From NCBI GenBank assembly GCA_003220435.1, contig QHSL01000015.1, forward strand, positions 64,745 to 98,388: 33,644 nt of DNA. Reading direction: 5' to 3'. Origin of the DNA: Candidatus Rokuibacteriota bacterium. Its GTDB lineage: Bacteria > Methylomirabilota > Methylomirabilia > Rokubacteriales > CSP1-6. Below, piece by piece: positions 10,950-31,636 of this stretch. The position numbers and the translations under genes are program-made. Within the stretch, counting starts at the first letter, position 1. Each line of letters starts with the position of its first letter. The notes beneath the pieces were generated by a model, which was given only the letters and a program-made list of their open reading frames with translations, made no database searches and was not told the origin of the DNA.

Positions 10950-10979
10950 GAGCCGACCTCCCTCTCCTGGCGTACCGTG

Positions 10980-11098
10980 GTGCGCGCCGCAGGCCGTCGC
11001 GGGGCCGTCGTGCGAGCCGCAGGGCCGCCCGGGGGCTGGGGTCCCCAGGCCCGAGGCGAGCGATGCGAACAGTCCCCGCCGGCCGAGGCGCGGCCATA
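10980..11098 (-). repeat. Palindromic element (subfamily A) split by a subfamily B copy
   Basis: 10980-11004 matches the first 25 bases of the reverse-oriented element seen intact at 21571-21629. 11074-11093 matches its last part (CCCCGCCGGCCGAGGCGCGG). Between them, 11010-11061 is a second element with GCGAGC-type arms, most like the copy at 16389-16446. The break falls at the loop of the outer palindrome, where the 6 bases CTGGGG are missing. The element reads in the sense of the enolase-superfamily gene, 31 nt from its start. It fills most of the 190-bp divergent intergenic region. Confidence 0.75.
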
Positions 11099-11139
11099 GA
11101 ATCCTGGAGGCCGCTAGACTACCAGATCGAGGAGGCCCG

Positions 11140-16349: not shown

Positions 16350-16369
16350 GTCTCGTTCCCTCCTACTAT

Positions 16370-16397
16370 CTATATGGCCTATATGGCTCTATATGGC
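16370..16397. repeat. Three near-tandem CTATATGGC repeats
   Basis: CTATATGGC occurs at 16370-16378, 16379-16387 and 16389-16397. The third copy is also the left end of the palindromic element that follows. They lie directly before the small-subunit ribosome site, on the upstream side of a minus-strand gene. Confidence 0.85.
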
Positions 16398-16446
16398 TCG
16401 CCTCGGGCGGCGGGTCCCCAGCCCCGCGACGCCCTGCGGCTCGCAC
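16389..16446 (+). repeat. Palindromic element, subfamily B
   Basis: A copy with GCTCGC-type arms: CTATATGGCTCGCCTCGG at the left and CCTGCGGCTCGCACT at the right, around CCCCAGCCCCG. It lies between the medium and small subunit genes of the molybdenum hydroxylase and is antisense to them. Its closest relative in the window is the inner copy at 11010-11061. Confidence 0.8.
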
Positions 16447-16453
16447 TGCCACA

Positions 16454-17320
16454 TCAGGCGCTGGCTCGGGCCAGTGCGGTGGTCAACGTACGCCGGGTCA
16501 GGACGCGAACGAGGTGACGGCGGAAGTCGGCCGAGCCGCGCTGGTCGCTGATCGGCCGCGCGACCTCCAACGCTAGATCCGCCGCGCGCGCGATCAGCTC
16601 GGGCGTCACGCGCTGCCCTTCGAGCGCCCGCTCGGCCCCCGTCGCGCGGAGGGGGACTGGAGCCACGGCGGCCAGCGCGATCCGCGCCTTCGCGCACACG
16701 CCGTTGGCCAGCGTGAGCTGCGACGCCACGCCCACAACGGCGATGTCGAGCTCACGCCGCGGTGTGTGCCGCAGATAGTTGCCGCCGCTGTTGGGCCCGG
16801 TCGCTGGTAAAGCCAGCTCCACCAGCAGCTCGTCCGGAGCCAGGACCGTCTTGCGGACGCCGGTGAAGAACGTGGCGACCGGCACTCGCCGCTCGCCCTT
16901 GGGGCCGACGATGATGGCCTCGGCGTCGAGGGCCAGCAGCGGCGGCGCCATGTCCGCCGACGGCGCCGCGTTGCAAAGATTGCCGCCCAGCGTGGCCAGG
17001 TTGCGCACCTGTACCGAGCCGACGAGGGCGCCGCTCTCGGCGAGCGAGAGGTAGCGCCCTTGCACGGTCCGATCGAGCTCGAGCGTTCGGGCCGTCACCG
17101 CGGAGCCGATCCGTAGCCCCTGCCCGTTCGCGGACTCGATGGCGCGGAGCTGCGCAACGCCGGACAGATCGATCACGCGCGCGGGCTTGAGCAGGCCGTT
17201 CTTGAGCTGAGGCAGGAGGTCCGTCCCTCCGGCCAGCAGCTTCGTCTCGGGCCCCTGCTGGGCGAGGGTCCGCACACACTCATCAACGCTCTGGGGGAGA
17301 AGAAGCTCGAATCGTCGCAC
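16454..17320 (-). CDS. FAD-binding subunit of the molybdenum hydroxylase (medium)
   Basis: A 288-residue protein of the CoxM/CutM family. FAD pyrophosphate contacts are LLAGGTDLL (28-36) and TLGGNLCNAAPSAD (110-123), and a CO dehydrogenase flavoprotein C-terminal domain covers about 180-285. It accepts electrons from the (2Fe-2S) subunit and passes them to a quinone or other acceptor. It is the first gene of the operon. The start is GTG at 17320 with GGAGAC upstream. An inverted repeat CACCAACG-N8-CGTTGGTG lies 30 bp upstream and could control this operon and the divergent one. Confidence 0.92.
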   Translation of the reverse strand: MRRFELLLPQSVDECVRTLAQQGPETKLLAGGTDLLPQLKNGLLKPARVIDLSGVAQLRAIESANGQGLRIGSAVTARTLELDRTVQGRYLSLAESGALVGSVQVRNLATLGGNLCNAAPSADMAPPLLALDAEAIIVGPKGERRVPVATFFTGVRKTVLAPDELLVELALPATGPNSGGNYLRHTPRRELDIAVVGVASQLTLANGVCAKARIALAAVAPVPLRATGAERALEGQRVTPELIARAADLALEVARPISDQRGSADFRRHLVRVLTRRTLTTALARASA

Positions 17321-17373: not shown

Positions 17374-17427
17374 TACCTTAACACATCGTCCTGGGTCGAT
17401 CATCTGGGCGGCCGGCGGCGCACTGGA

Positions 17428-17474
17428 TTGTCGCCGCGCCTCAGCCGGCGGGGCCCGAGCCCCGCGACGGCTTA
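17428..17474 (+). repeat. Palindromic element, right end truncated
   Basis: It begins TTGTCGCCGCGCCTCAGCCG, continues through GCCCCGCGACGGC and stops there. The right arm seen elsewhere (CTGCGGCGCGCAC) is replaced by CTTACATAGGGAG, which leads into the ribosome site of the gene at 17492. It reads in the sense of that gene and ends 17 nt before its ATG. Confidence 0.75.
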
Positions 17475-17491
17475 CATAGGGAGACTCGCGT

Positions 17492-18400
17492 ATGCGCATC
17501 GGCTTCATCGGGCTGGGGAACATGGGCGGGCCGATGGCCCTCAACGTCCTGAGGGGCGGCCACACGATGGTCGTGTCGGATCTCCGGCAGGAGCCGGCGA
17601 AGCCGCACATGGCGCTGGGCGCCACCTGGGCGAGCACCCCGAAGGCCGTGGCGGCGGCGAGCGAGGTCGTCTTCACGTCGCTGCCCGGCCCCCGCGAGGT
17701 CGAAGTGGTGGCCCTGGGCCCCGCCGGGATCCTCGAAGGCGCGGCCCGCGGCACGGTTTACGTCGACCTCTCCACGAACTCGGCGACGCTCATCCGCAAG
17801 ATCCACGGGGTGTGCGCCCAGCGTGGCGTCGACGTGCTGGACGCGCCGGTCAGCGGCGGCGTGCCCGGGGCGCGCTCCGGCAAGCTGGCAGTGCTGGTCG
17901 GCGGCGACGAGGCGCTCTACCGTCGCCTGAAGCCGGTGCTGGACGTCATCGGAGACAAGGTGACCTTCGTCGGCGGGATCGGTTGCGGCACCGTCGCAAA
18001 GCTCGTGCACAACATGGTGTCGGCGTGCTCGCGCATGGCGATCGCCGAGGGCATGACGCTCGGCGTGAAGGCCGGCGTGGCGCCCGAGGTCCTGCTCGAC
18101 GCGCTCGCCAAGAGCTCGTTCGGCCAGGGGCGCGTGCTCAAGGACATGATCCCCAACACCGTGTTCCCGGGCGCCTACGACGACGTCAACTTTGCGCTCA
18201 AGCTCCTGCGCAAGGACGTCGGGCTGGCGACCGAGCTCGGTCGCGAGTATCACGTGCCCATGATGATCGCGGCGATCGCCGAGCAGCAGCTCGAAGAGGC
18301 GCTGCGGCGGGGCTGGGGCGACAAGGACTCGATGACCTTTTTCCGCCTGCAAGAGGAGCGCGCCGGCGTCGAGCTGCGGACGACCAAGCGAGGAGCCTGA
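17492..18400 (+). CDS. 3-hydroxyisobutyrate dehydrogenase-family NAD(P)-dependent oxidoreductase
   Basis: A 302-residue beta-hydroxyacid dehydrogenase. The Rossmann motif GFIGLGNMG is at 4-12, the substrate signature DAPVSGG at 117-123, and catalytic Lys170 with Asn174 in GTVAKLVHN. The C-terminal helical domain is complete. Family substrates include 3-hydroxyisobutyrate, tartronate semialdehyde and other small 3-hydroxyacids, and sequence alone does not choose among them. It is the first gene of a three-gene operon with an SMP-30 lactonase (3 nt spacing) and a luciferase-like oxidoreductase. The lactonase suggests a sugar-acid or lactone-containing pathway, which is inference. Confidence 0.92.
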   Translation: MRIGFIGLGNMGGPMALNVLRGGHTMVVSDLRQEPAKPHMALGATWASTPKAVAAASEVVFTSLPGPREVEVVALGPAGILEGAARGTVYVDLSTNSATLIRKIHGVCAQRGVDVLDAPVSGGVPGARSGKLAVLVGGDEALYRRLKPVLDVIGDKVTFVGGIGCGTVAKLVHNMVSACSRMAIAEGMTLGVKAGVAPEVLLDALAKSSFGQGRVLKDMIPNTVFPGAYDDVNFALKLLRKDVGLATELGREYHVPMMIAAIAEQQLEEALRRGWGDKDSMTFFRLQEERAGVELRTTKRGA

Positions 18401-21548: not shown

Positions 21549-21570
21549 TTCGGTCCTCCAGTCGTCGGTA

Positions 21571-21629
21571 GTGCGTGCCGCAGGCCGTCGCGGGGCTGGG
21601 GCCCCGCCGGCCGAGGCGCGGTTACAAAT
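21571..21629 (-). repeat. Palindromic element, intact copy (subfamily A)
   Basis: It reads GTGCGTGCCGCAGGCCGTCG at its left end, then CGGGGCTGGGGCCCCG and GCCGAGGCGCGGTTACAAAT. On the minus strand it is in the sense of the MetE-like gene and ends 22 nt from its ATG. It also lies 17 nt past the stop of the upstream gamma-glutamyltransferase gene. This copy serves as the reference for the split copy at 10980-11098. Confidence 0.85.
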
Positions 21630-21646
21630 TGTCGACCGCGGCGCCG

Positions 21647-23449
21647 CTACCAGGCCAGCGCGTAGGTCGGCCGCCGCGGGTCGGCGCCGGCCGAGACCAC
21701 GCCCGACTCCGGATCGCGTCGGGTCACGACGGCGCCGTTCCCGCAGGCGCCGATCTCGCTGACCGTGTGGCCAAGCGCTCTGAGCTCGGCGCGGGTGCTC
21801 TCGGGAACGCCGGGCTCGACGTTGAGCTGGCCGGGCCGGTAGACGCGCGGATAGAACGAGTTGACGAGCGTCTGGGTCGAGAAGCGCGGCGCCTCCACCG
21901 CCTGCTGCGGATTCATCCCCCACACCAGCAGGTTGAGAATGAGCTGCAGGTCGGCCTGGGCCTGGTCGTCGCCGCCCGGGCAGCCGACGGTCACGGAGGG
22001 CACGCCGCCCTCACAGATCAGATAGGAGATGAGCGTGGTGCGCGGCCGTTTGCCCGGGACCAACCCGTTGGGATGACCGTCCTCGAGGACGAACATCTCG
22101 CTCCGCGTGCTCAGCGTGCAGCCGAGCTCCGGAGCGAACACCGACTTCCGGAACACGCCACCGCTCGGGGTGAGTGCGACCATGCTGCCCTCGCGGTCGA
22201 CGACCGCGATGTGGGTCGTGCCGTCGGCGGCGGGCTCGACCGCTGTCGTGCCGGATCGCACGCCCATCGTCGCCGTGCTCGCGGCCGCCGGAGCGCCCCG
22301 GCGCTCGAGATTCCCGGGCGCCGGCGCCTCGGGCGCCGCCCGGTCCATCCGGATCAATCCAGCGCGCTCGCGGAGATAGGCCGGCGCCAGCAGCTCGCCG
22401 ATCGCTTTCGCCGCCGCGTCGGAATCGCCGTAGTACCGCTCGCGGTCGGCGAACGCGAGCTTGAGCGCCTCGGTGATCACGTGGATGTATCGCGCCGAGT
22501 TGTGTCCGAGCGCACGCACATCAACGGTCGCCAGCATGCCGAGCGCCTGCATGAGGACGGGCCCCTGGGTCCACGCGGGCGGCCCGAGGATCTCGCGCCC
22601 GGCGAACGACATCCGCAGCGGCGGCTCGAAGTGGGCGCGGTAGCCGGCAAGGTCGGCGGCTCGGAGAAGCCCGCCCACGCGCTCGGAGAACGCGCCGATC
22701 GCGACCGCGATGTCGCCACGGTAGAACCGGTCGCGGGCGGCGCCGATCCCGGCGAGCCGGTGCCCTCGGCTCAGCGCCTCGGCGTGGACGAGTCGCCGCA
22801 GCGTGCCGGCGAGCGCCGGCTGCACGAGGAGCTCGCCCACCTCGGGCGTCCGCCCGCCCGGAAAGAACACCGCGGTCCCTCCGGGAGGATACAGATCGAA
22901 CTGGCTGCGGCTCTCGCCGATCGTGAGAATCCGGCGCATATGCTCGTACATCGGGAACCCGTGCTCGGCGTACTGCACCGCCGGCGCCAGCACCTCGCCG
23001 ACGGTCTTCGTGCCGAAGCGCTCGAGCACCTCGAGAAAGGCGCCGACGGCGCCGGGAACCGTGAACGATAGGTGGGCGTCGGCTCCCGGCCCCGTCGGGA
23101 TGCGATCGAGCTTGCGCCCGCGGAAGAAAGCGAGCGTCGCGAGAGCCGGAGCCACTCCCTGCCCGCTCAGGACAAGCACCTGCCGGCTCCGCGCGTCGTG
23201 GACCACCGCCACGCACTCGCCGCACAGCGTGTAGGACGCTGTCGGCTCCACCACCGCGGCGGCGAACCCCGCCGCGGCTGCCGCGTCGAAGGCATTGCCG
23301 CCCGACAGCAGCATGCGCATGCCGGCCATCGACACCAGGGGATGGCCCGATGAGACGACCCCTTGAGTGCCCGCGACCACCGGCCGCGTGGTCGCTCGGT
23401 CGGCGGAGTGATGCTCGATCTCGTAGACCCGCCCGGTCGGTCTGCTCAT
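21647..23449 (-). CDS. Gamma-glutamyltransferase family Ntn-hydrolase
   Basis: A 600-residue gamma-glutamyltranspeptidase-type proenzyme. The predicted autocleavage nucleophile is Thr411 in DGTTHIAVVD. Large-subunit motifs such as SSGHPLVSMAGMRMLLSGGN (about 33-52) and small-subunit motifs such as the VTVGCPGGDDQ stretch and WGMNPQQAVEAPR are present. No signal peptide is visible, although many homologues are periplasmic; several soil-bacterial homologues instead act as cytoplasmic acylases or amidohydrolases, so true glutathione activity is not certain. The ATG at 23449 is the first Met before conserved sequence. GGGAG lies rather far upstream (about 12 nt). Longer readings upstream only translate the tandem palindromic repeat. 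Confidence 0.88.
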   Translation of the reverse strand: MSRPTGRVYEIEHHSADRATTRPVVAGTQGVVSSGHPLVSMAGMRMLLSGGNAFDAAAAAGFAAAVVEPTASYTLCGECVAVVHDARSRQVLVLSGQGVAPALATLAFFRGRKLDRIPTGPGADAHLSFTVPGAVGAFLEVLERFGTKTVGEVLAPAVQYAEHGFPMYEHMRRILTIGESRSQFDLYPPGGTAVFFPGGRTPEVGELLVQPALAGTLRRLVHAEALSRGHRLAGIGAARDRFYRGDIAVAIGAFSERVGGLLRAADLAGYRAHFEPPLRMSFAGREILGPPAWTQGPVLMQALGMLATVDVRALGHNSARYIHVITEALKLAFADRERYYGDSDAAAKAIGELLAPAYLRERAGLIRMDRAAPEAPAPGNLERRGAPAAASTATMGVRSGTTAVEPAADGTTHIAVVDREGSMVALTPSGGVFRKSVFAPELGCTLSTRSEMFVLEDGHPNGLVPGKRPRTTLISYLICEGGVPSVTVGCPGGDDQAQADLQLILNLLVWGMNPQQAVEAPRFSTQTLVNSFYPRVYRPGQLNVEPGVPESTRAELRALGHTVSEIGACGNGAVVTRRDPESGVVSAGADPRRPTYALAW

Positions 23450-23857
23450 CGGCTCGGTGCTCCCTTTTGTATTCGCGCCTCGGCCGGCGGGCCCCCGCCC
23501 CGCGACGGCCTGCGGCGCGCACTTCCCCTTTGTATTCGCGCCTCGGCCGGCGGGGCCCCAGCCCCGCGACGGCCTGCGGCGCGCACTTCCCCTTTGTATT
23601 CGCGCCTCGGCCGGCGGGGCCCCAGCCCCGCGACGGCCTGCGGCGCGCACTTCCTTCGTATATTTGGCCCGGACGAACCGATACCGCGCGGCGACGGGCC
23701 GGTCAAGCTGAATAGTAGCGCTAGGGCAAGAGATCGGCGACGGAGATCCGGGCCGTGGAGAGGCTCGCCTTGTGCAAGCGGTCGACGGCGGGGCTCGAGC
23801 GCGACTTCCGCGACCAGCACCGGATCGGCCGATGCGCGTCGGCATAGTCGCGGACGG
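23450..23857. other. 408-bp intergenic region: tandem palindromic array plus unassigned sequence
   Basis: The first half (to 23650) is the 64-bp tandem array described separately. From 23651 to about 23700 the sequence is less GC-rich (TTCGTATATTTGGCC). From 23720 to 23857 the minus strand reads open but matches nothing I recognise and has no start signal, so it may be decayed coding sequence. No promoter can be placed with confidence. Confidence 0.5.
23468..23650 (+). repeat. Tandem array of three palindromic elements (64-bp period)
   Basis: Copies lie at 23468-23522, 23531-23586 and 23595-23650, each beginning TGTATTCGCGCCTCGG and ending TGCGGCGCGCAC. The two linkers are identical 8-mers, TTCCCCTT. 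The second and third copies are identical; the first differs only in its central run (GGGCCCCCGCCCC instead of GGGGCCCCAGCCCC). Each copy can fold as an imperfect hairpin with CGGGG/CCCCG at its centre. The array begins 19 nt upstream of the gamma-glutamyltransferase start and is antisense to it. Confidence 0.95.
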
Positions 23858-31475: not shown

Positions 31476-31488
31476 GACGCCTCCCTGG

Positions 31489-31546
31489 TTTATAGGCGCG
31501 CCTCAGCCGGCAGGGCCCCAGCCCCGCGACGGCTTGCGGCGCGCAC
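31489..31546 (+). repeat. Palindromic element, subfamily A
   Basis: It begins TTTATAGGCGCGCCTCAGCC, continues through GCCCCAGCCCCGCGACGGC and ends TTGCGGCGCGCAC. It abuts the ribosome site of the NIPSNAP gene on one side and reads in the sense of the MetE-like gene that starts 91 nt downstream. Confidence 0.85.
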
Positions 31547-31636
31547 GACGGCTCGGGCCCGCGGCCGGCGACCCGGCGTCCAAAGGGTACTGTATGATTC
31601 ACTCGCTGTGAAGGTCAGCTCCCTCCAGGAGGCACC

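Follow-up and report, generated by a model that had tools for sequence, protein, structure and literature searches.

A REP-like repeat of Rokubacteria, in tandem copies confined to one lineage, ahead of a gamma-glutamyltransferase gene

The array upstream of ggt

The window, by which we mean the whole 33,644-nt stretch of DNA analyzed, carries a gamma-glutamyltransferase gene (ggt) preceded by three head-to-tail copies of a palindromic element (Table 1). The first-pass annotation had described a 64-bp tandem array of three palindromes, and Tandem Repeats Finder (TRF) recovers this array with a period of 64, 3.0 copies, and 97% matches. Copies two and three were said to be identical across 56 bp, which is true, and the identity is wider than claimed: bases i and i + 64 are equal over 94 consecutive positions (i = 23497–23590). 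The identical 8-bp linkers also reported are present as sequence, TTCCCCTT occurring at 23523–23530 and 23587–23594, but they do not appear to be separate spacers, because the edges of the element place its tail, 3 nt, and the head of the adjoining copy there; they are thus unit ends. The statement that copy one, the copy adjoining ggt, has drifted in its loop only is incorrect, since relative to copy two it has a one-base deletion plus a substitution at the hairpin apex. The downstream gene was named correctly as a gamma-glutamyltransferase, the gene in the array's sense direction having a match to PF01019.

Table 1. Features of the ggt locus and other copies of the element in the window
Feature	Coordinates	Strand	Basis
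Composite: second element inside the apical loop of the first	10971–11106	+	Model match, 43.3 bits; sequence; same junction elsewhere
Single element upstream of 2Fe-2S subunit gene (PF01799)	16383–16455	-	Model match, 72.4 bits; Pfam
Single decayed element	17421–17493	-	Model match, 47 bits
Single element in the gap that separates ggt from the next gene; antisense to the two genes	21562–21634	+	Model match, 87.1 bits
Gamma-glutamyltransferase gene (ggt), downstream of the array	21647–23449	-	PF01019, E = 7.3e-115; gene call
Shine-Dalgarno-like GGGAG of ggt	23460–23464	-	Read from sequence; caller score for a 4-base match
Array of three head-to-tail element copies, sense toward ggt	23461–23654	-	TRF and direct repeats
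Copy one, adjoining ggt; core 23476–23517; one base shorter at hairpin apex	23466–23525	-	Core match, flank alignment, fold z -1.85
Copy two, middle; core 23539–23581	23529–23589	-	Core match, flank alignment edges, fold z -4.5
Copy three, farthest from ggt; head 23646–23653, core 23603–23645, tail 23593–23602	23593–23653	-	Core match, flank alignment edges, fold z -4.1
Approximate decayed remnant of the gene kept by sister genomes (Uma2 in G016)	23657–23857	-	Alignment with G016; PF05685 for the G016 gene
Single element; orthologous sister sites with 0, 1, or 2 copies	31483–31555	-	Model match, 83.3 bits

The unit is ∼61 bp long and consists of a G..GTG head, an imperfect hairpin of 18 pairs with a 3/2 internal loop and a 2-nt bulge, and a CTATRAA tail. 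Its edges are sharp in the aligned flanks of 116 single copies, where the head starts 8 nt ahead of the core and the tail reaches to 10 nt past it; the values for the outer G in these copies are 95% and 90%. Since the 60- to 66-bp spacing of arrays is about the element's own length, the copies in an array abut. Folding of copies two and three as single-stranded DNA gives structures that none of 200 shuffles equals in stability; for copy one, which folds less strongly (Table 1), 6 of 200 do.

Across copies, 96.4% of the cells in the stem alignment pair, and three pairs are changed on both sides, a result matched by 12 of 500 shuffles: The covariation in the stem is weak. G-U pairs outnumber A-C pairs 53 to 20, but with one pair left out the counts are 30 and 20 (P = 0.20); we therefore dropped wobble pairs as proof of folding as RNA rather than as DNA.

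In copy one, the end of the tail lies 16 nt from the ATG of ggt, and the GGGAG of ggt starts one base past the tail and 10 nt ahead of the ATG. Rfam 15 has no match in the window at the gathering score. Between 23300 and 24000 we find no promoter-like site and no terminator-like site on the ggt strand, and one terminator-like match on the other strand; the hairpin is followed by CTATRAA rather than by the U run of an intrinsic terminator. The TATRAA of the tail looks like a -10 box, but a promoter there was set aside: The tail also persists in places not followed by a gene start (it is retained at 28 sites at which the following gene is not sense-oriented), and no promoter-like site lies at the array.

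A dispersed and changeable family

Searching the own genome at the DNA level yields at least 42 matches, with scores computed for 40 of 232 candidates. Exact copies of the core stand at 64 places and copies with up to three mismatches at 137, and the reversed-pattern control at none in either case, which excludes a chance origin of the repeat unit. Among the 137 places 100 are listed, and our catalog holds 86 own sites with 104 copies; a pattern with the loop one base shorter occurs at 10 places, which may overlap the 137. Eight of the 86 sites fall inside a called gene. Five listed copies, on five contigs, lie within 250 bp of contig ends, so the assembly may break at the element.

When 84,980 species, each represented by one genome, were scanned for the exact pattern, 64 stretches were returned, and every one is titled Candidatus Rokuibacteriota. 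These stretches, with 70 sites, make up the set of other Rokubacteria used below; the set was thus picked by an exact match, and there is probably some overlap between it and the genus's sister genomes. A covariance model built from 42 copies finds the element in all nine genomes of the genus and in at least 46 of 57 genomes of the family, the family being the scope of this search, with about 86 scored candidates per genome. The exact pattern has no match in viral contigs. In the open-licence literature, judged by title and the start of the abstract, we found no description of such a repeat for Rokubacteria or Methylomirabilota. The three hairpins, taken in the first-pass annotation for a leader particular to ggt, are one site of a dispersed repeat family of Candidatus Rokuibacteriota; since the same element occurs genome-wide before unrelated genes, it is not a device of ggt alone.

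Multi-copy sites, with two to four copies, account for 13 of the 86 own sites and 16 of the 70 sites in the other set. The copies are head-to-tail at 28 of these 29 sites and inverted at one, and they are spaced 60–66 bp apart except for two pairs in the own genome that lie farther from each other, at 109 and 140 bp. Adjacent copies within arrays are 95.7% identical in the own genome (n = 13), compared with 84.8% between sites; in the other set the values are 92.2% (n = 17) and 87.5%. The higher identity inside arrays fits duplication in place, and the arrays look like local duplications. The tandem amplification that had been proposed from the ggt array is thereby supported for a resident copy.

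The array itself is lineage-specific, since all eight sister genomes lack the element at the site upstream of ggt. Another gene stands there instead, 579 bp long in seven of the eight and belonging to the Uma2 family (PF05685) in G016, the closest sister. At other sites, the predicted variation of copy number between related genomes is seen. The site at 31499 has one copy in the own genome, none in G016 and G013, one in G014, and two in G019. The site at 16399 has one copy in the own genome, none in G016 and G015, none in G014 (which has two scar-like remains), and two in G019, one of them divergent; the element at 21576 is absent from all six readable sisters. Comparison of relatives thus confirms that the number varies at orthologous sites, but at the ggt site the count in sisters is uniformly zero.

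For G016 we tried 27 sites and dropped five (one with flanks in different loci, and four lacking both flanks, the array site included). Of the 22 readable sites, seven are occupied and 15 unoccupied, and one occupied site has two copies against one in the own genome. Several of the unoccupied sites still carry tail-like or arm-like traces, which means that a gain is not always distinguishable from a loss, and neither exact insertion boundaries nor a target duplication was established. In G014, the tandem scar-like remains at the orthologue of 16399 match the ends of the two elements of G019, as if the hairpins had been deleted.

Position relative to genes and Shine-Dalgarno sequences

In gaps between co-directional genes, the element is in sense 69 times and antisense 22 times (P = 8e-7). 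A start codon lies 8–20 nt from the tail in 60 of 110 cases and from the head in 13 of 63, this range having been picked after the distances were seen. A Shine-Dalgarno match of at least four bases is found for 58 of 68 genes facing the tail, 11 of 22 facing the head, and 166 of 346 without an element (P = 5e-9); gene starts come from a purpose-made caller that weights the Shine-Dalgarno sequence, and the controls were run through the same caller. In a second count, by sites, the stretch from the tail to the start codon has such a match in only 58 of 83 cases with the tail facing a gene, and 45 of those 58 begin 0–3 nt past the tail. The element need not have supplied the Shine-Dalgarno sequence, since it is already there in seven of nine sister genes that lack the element.

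Co-directional, divergent, and convergent gaps contain the element 81, 36, and 10 times, against 29,968, 15,500, and 5590 bp of element-free gap; the class tracks the available intergenic space, which counts against targeting. Among 55 own genes with an element within 60 bp upstream, 30 were scanned, and 27 of these have a Pfam match; the matches belong to many unrelated families, so there is no evident regulon.

We also considered GGAG as a general insertion target, and rejected it. In the 12 nt after the tail, GGAG is present at 52 of 83 sites near a start (13.9 in shuffles) and at two of 27 far from one (2.1 in shuffles). After tails facing a stop it is present at six of 32 (2.8 in shuffles, 21 of 500 being as high), some of which resemble missed gene starts.

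Interpretation and relation to known repeats

The array is a real tandem expansion of a Rokubacterial REP-like element, confined to one lineage and not specific to ggt. As far as sequence can tell, the element acts like a REP, and it would be an unusual relative of the known REP repeats, which are defined in PMC3686654. According to parts of PMC3733652, GTAG REPs, which assemble into REPINs and BIMEs, are short imperfect palindromes with an unpaired G..G tag at one end and many, mainly intergenic, copies, often directly adjoining the stop codon of the gene before them. The element resembles them in these respects, its end being tag-like, and its distribution is likewise that of a dispersed, mainly intergenic palindrome. 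The element differs in being longer, in having the conserved CTATRAA tail, and in setting that tail against the Shine-Dalgarno sequence of the next gene, whereas the distance between a REP and the gene downstream is said to vary. Its tag is loose: GTAG REPs end in GTAG or GTGG, or in GYRG in some families, and we find GTRG at 26 of the 86 sites in the own genome and at 18 of the 70 in the other set, and GYRG at 45 of 86 and 29 of 70. The inverted pairing of REPINs and BIMEs was sought and is confined to the one inverted site among the 29 with multiple copies. CGTC-tagged REPs share with the element the lack of a dedicated transposase (PMC3733652, in part), but these have stems of 8–9 bp, a terminal CGTC tag, and a mostly head-to-head arrangement, in contrast to 18 pairs, a G..GTG head, and head-to-tail copies.

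We consider it probable that the element is a dispersed, non-coding, REP-like palindrome of Rokubacteria that serves in mRNA as a general post-transcriptional leader. Its copies would be transcribed, because most co-directional copies lie in sense between a stop codon and a Shine-Dalgarno sequence. In mRNA, the element would then form a stem-loop immediately 5′ of the ribosome-binding site, which the A/U-rich tail may hold open. The likeliest effect would be on mRNA processing or stability and on the tuning of initiation, in a general way, as has been proposed for REPs, rather than as a switch for a single gene. Tandem copies would probably be gained by slippage or unequal exchange and lost by deletion of palindromes. 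A bolder version, which is possible and which we put forward tentatively, is that of a palindromic mobile element independent of RAYT that inserts one way round before Shine-Dalgarno sequences, or is kept only there, and so equips dozens of unrelated genes with one and the same hairpin leader; their expression could then be tuned by tandem number.

Two other readings, both somewhat unlikely, would leave the leader aside or give the repeat a more ordinary origin. A neutral or mildly selfish repeat with no role in expression, surviving only in harmless spots between stop codon and Shine-Dalgarno sequence, would account for the gap classes that track intergenic space, for the diversity of downstream genes, and for the high turnover of sites; free space alone would not predict the excess of sense copies or the link of Shine-Dalgarno sequences to the tail, and the head side shows neither effect. 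Slightly less likely still is an ordinary GTAG-type REP that owed its spread to a RAYT transposase, later lost from the genus. The palindrome, its G..G-tagged end, and its spread through intergenic DNA suit this origin, RAYT loss with persisting REPs is on record in a portion of PMC3686654, and among 95 genomes of the phylum, 35 have Y1 transposases. The RAYT domain PF01797, however, is found in none of the nine genomes of the genus, and no strong element occurs in 17 stretches around the Y1 genes of relatives: The best matches there score 19.2 and 17.4 bits (E = 0.0023 and 0.0078) and lie at distances of about 2 kb and 1 kb, whereas the copies in the window score 43–88 bits. The head-to-tail arrays without head-to-head pairing and the scarcity of the strict GTRG tag argue against it as well.

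MIRUs also form variable-number head-to-tail copies, are apparently mobile, and insert at start codons (PMC12548453, in part). The element resembles them in its arrays close to gene starts, whose numbers differ at orthologous sites, and an ATGA is possible within the tail. A MIRU-like element carrying a short reading frame with coupling to the gene that follows is nonetheless highly improbable, as the 69 sense sites show neither a preferred frame nor a fixed overlap such as the -4 spacing of MIRUs: The phases from tail to start are 28/25/16 and from stop to start 27/22/20. In place of the coupled frame the element has a strong hairpin. We think it equally improbable that the ggt array arose in assembly, by multiplication of one copy or collapse of a longer array. 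The assembly is a draft of 147 contigs with several copies at contig ends, and copies two and three are identical, so that short reads cannot settle the number; the exact copy number may thus reflect collapse or miscount. The existence of the array is backed by arrays of the same period elsewhere, in the own genome and in other assemblies, several of which have variants private to the array. Least credible is a riboswitch, attenuator, or terminator specific to ggt: Stable hairpins do lie in its leader, but the same element stands before unrelated genes and is missing before ggt in every sister genome.

If the hairpins of the REP-like leader act in mRNA, a largely uncultured phylum would have one portable leader before many unrelated genes, with leader copy numbers that shift between sister species. 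The usual transposase partner of such a family was not found where the repeat is common, which raises the question of what else disperses such palindromes.

Some individual copies show further peculiarities. At two own and three other sites, a GTAG-type head doubles as the TAG stop codon of the upstream gene, as in GTAG REPs. Between the element at 16399 and the Shine-Dalgarno sequence of the next gene, a 10-bp tandem repeat (TCTATATGGC, 3.2 copies, 16369–16399) looks like an expanded element tail. The composite form in the window belongs to a class seen at 29 places in seven of the nine genomes of the genus, all with the same junction (eight in the own genome and 12 in G014), and in 19 of 20 composite loci read by eye the outer arm resumes past the inner element. 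At the site of the window's composite (10971–11106), G016 has the simple form.
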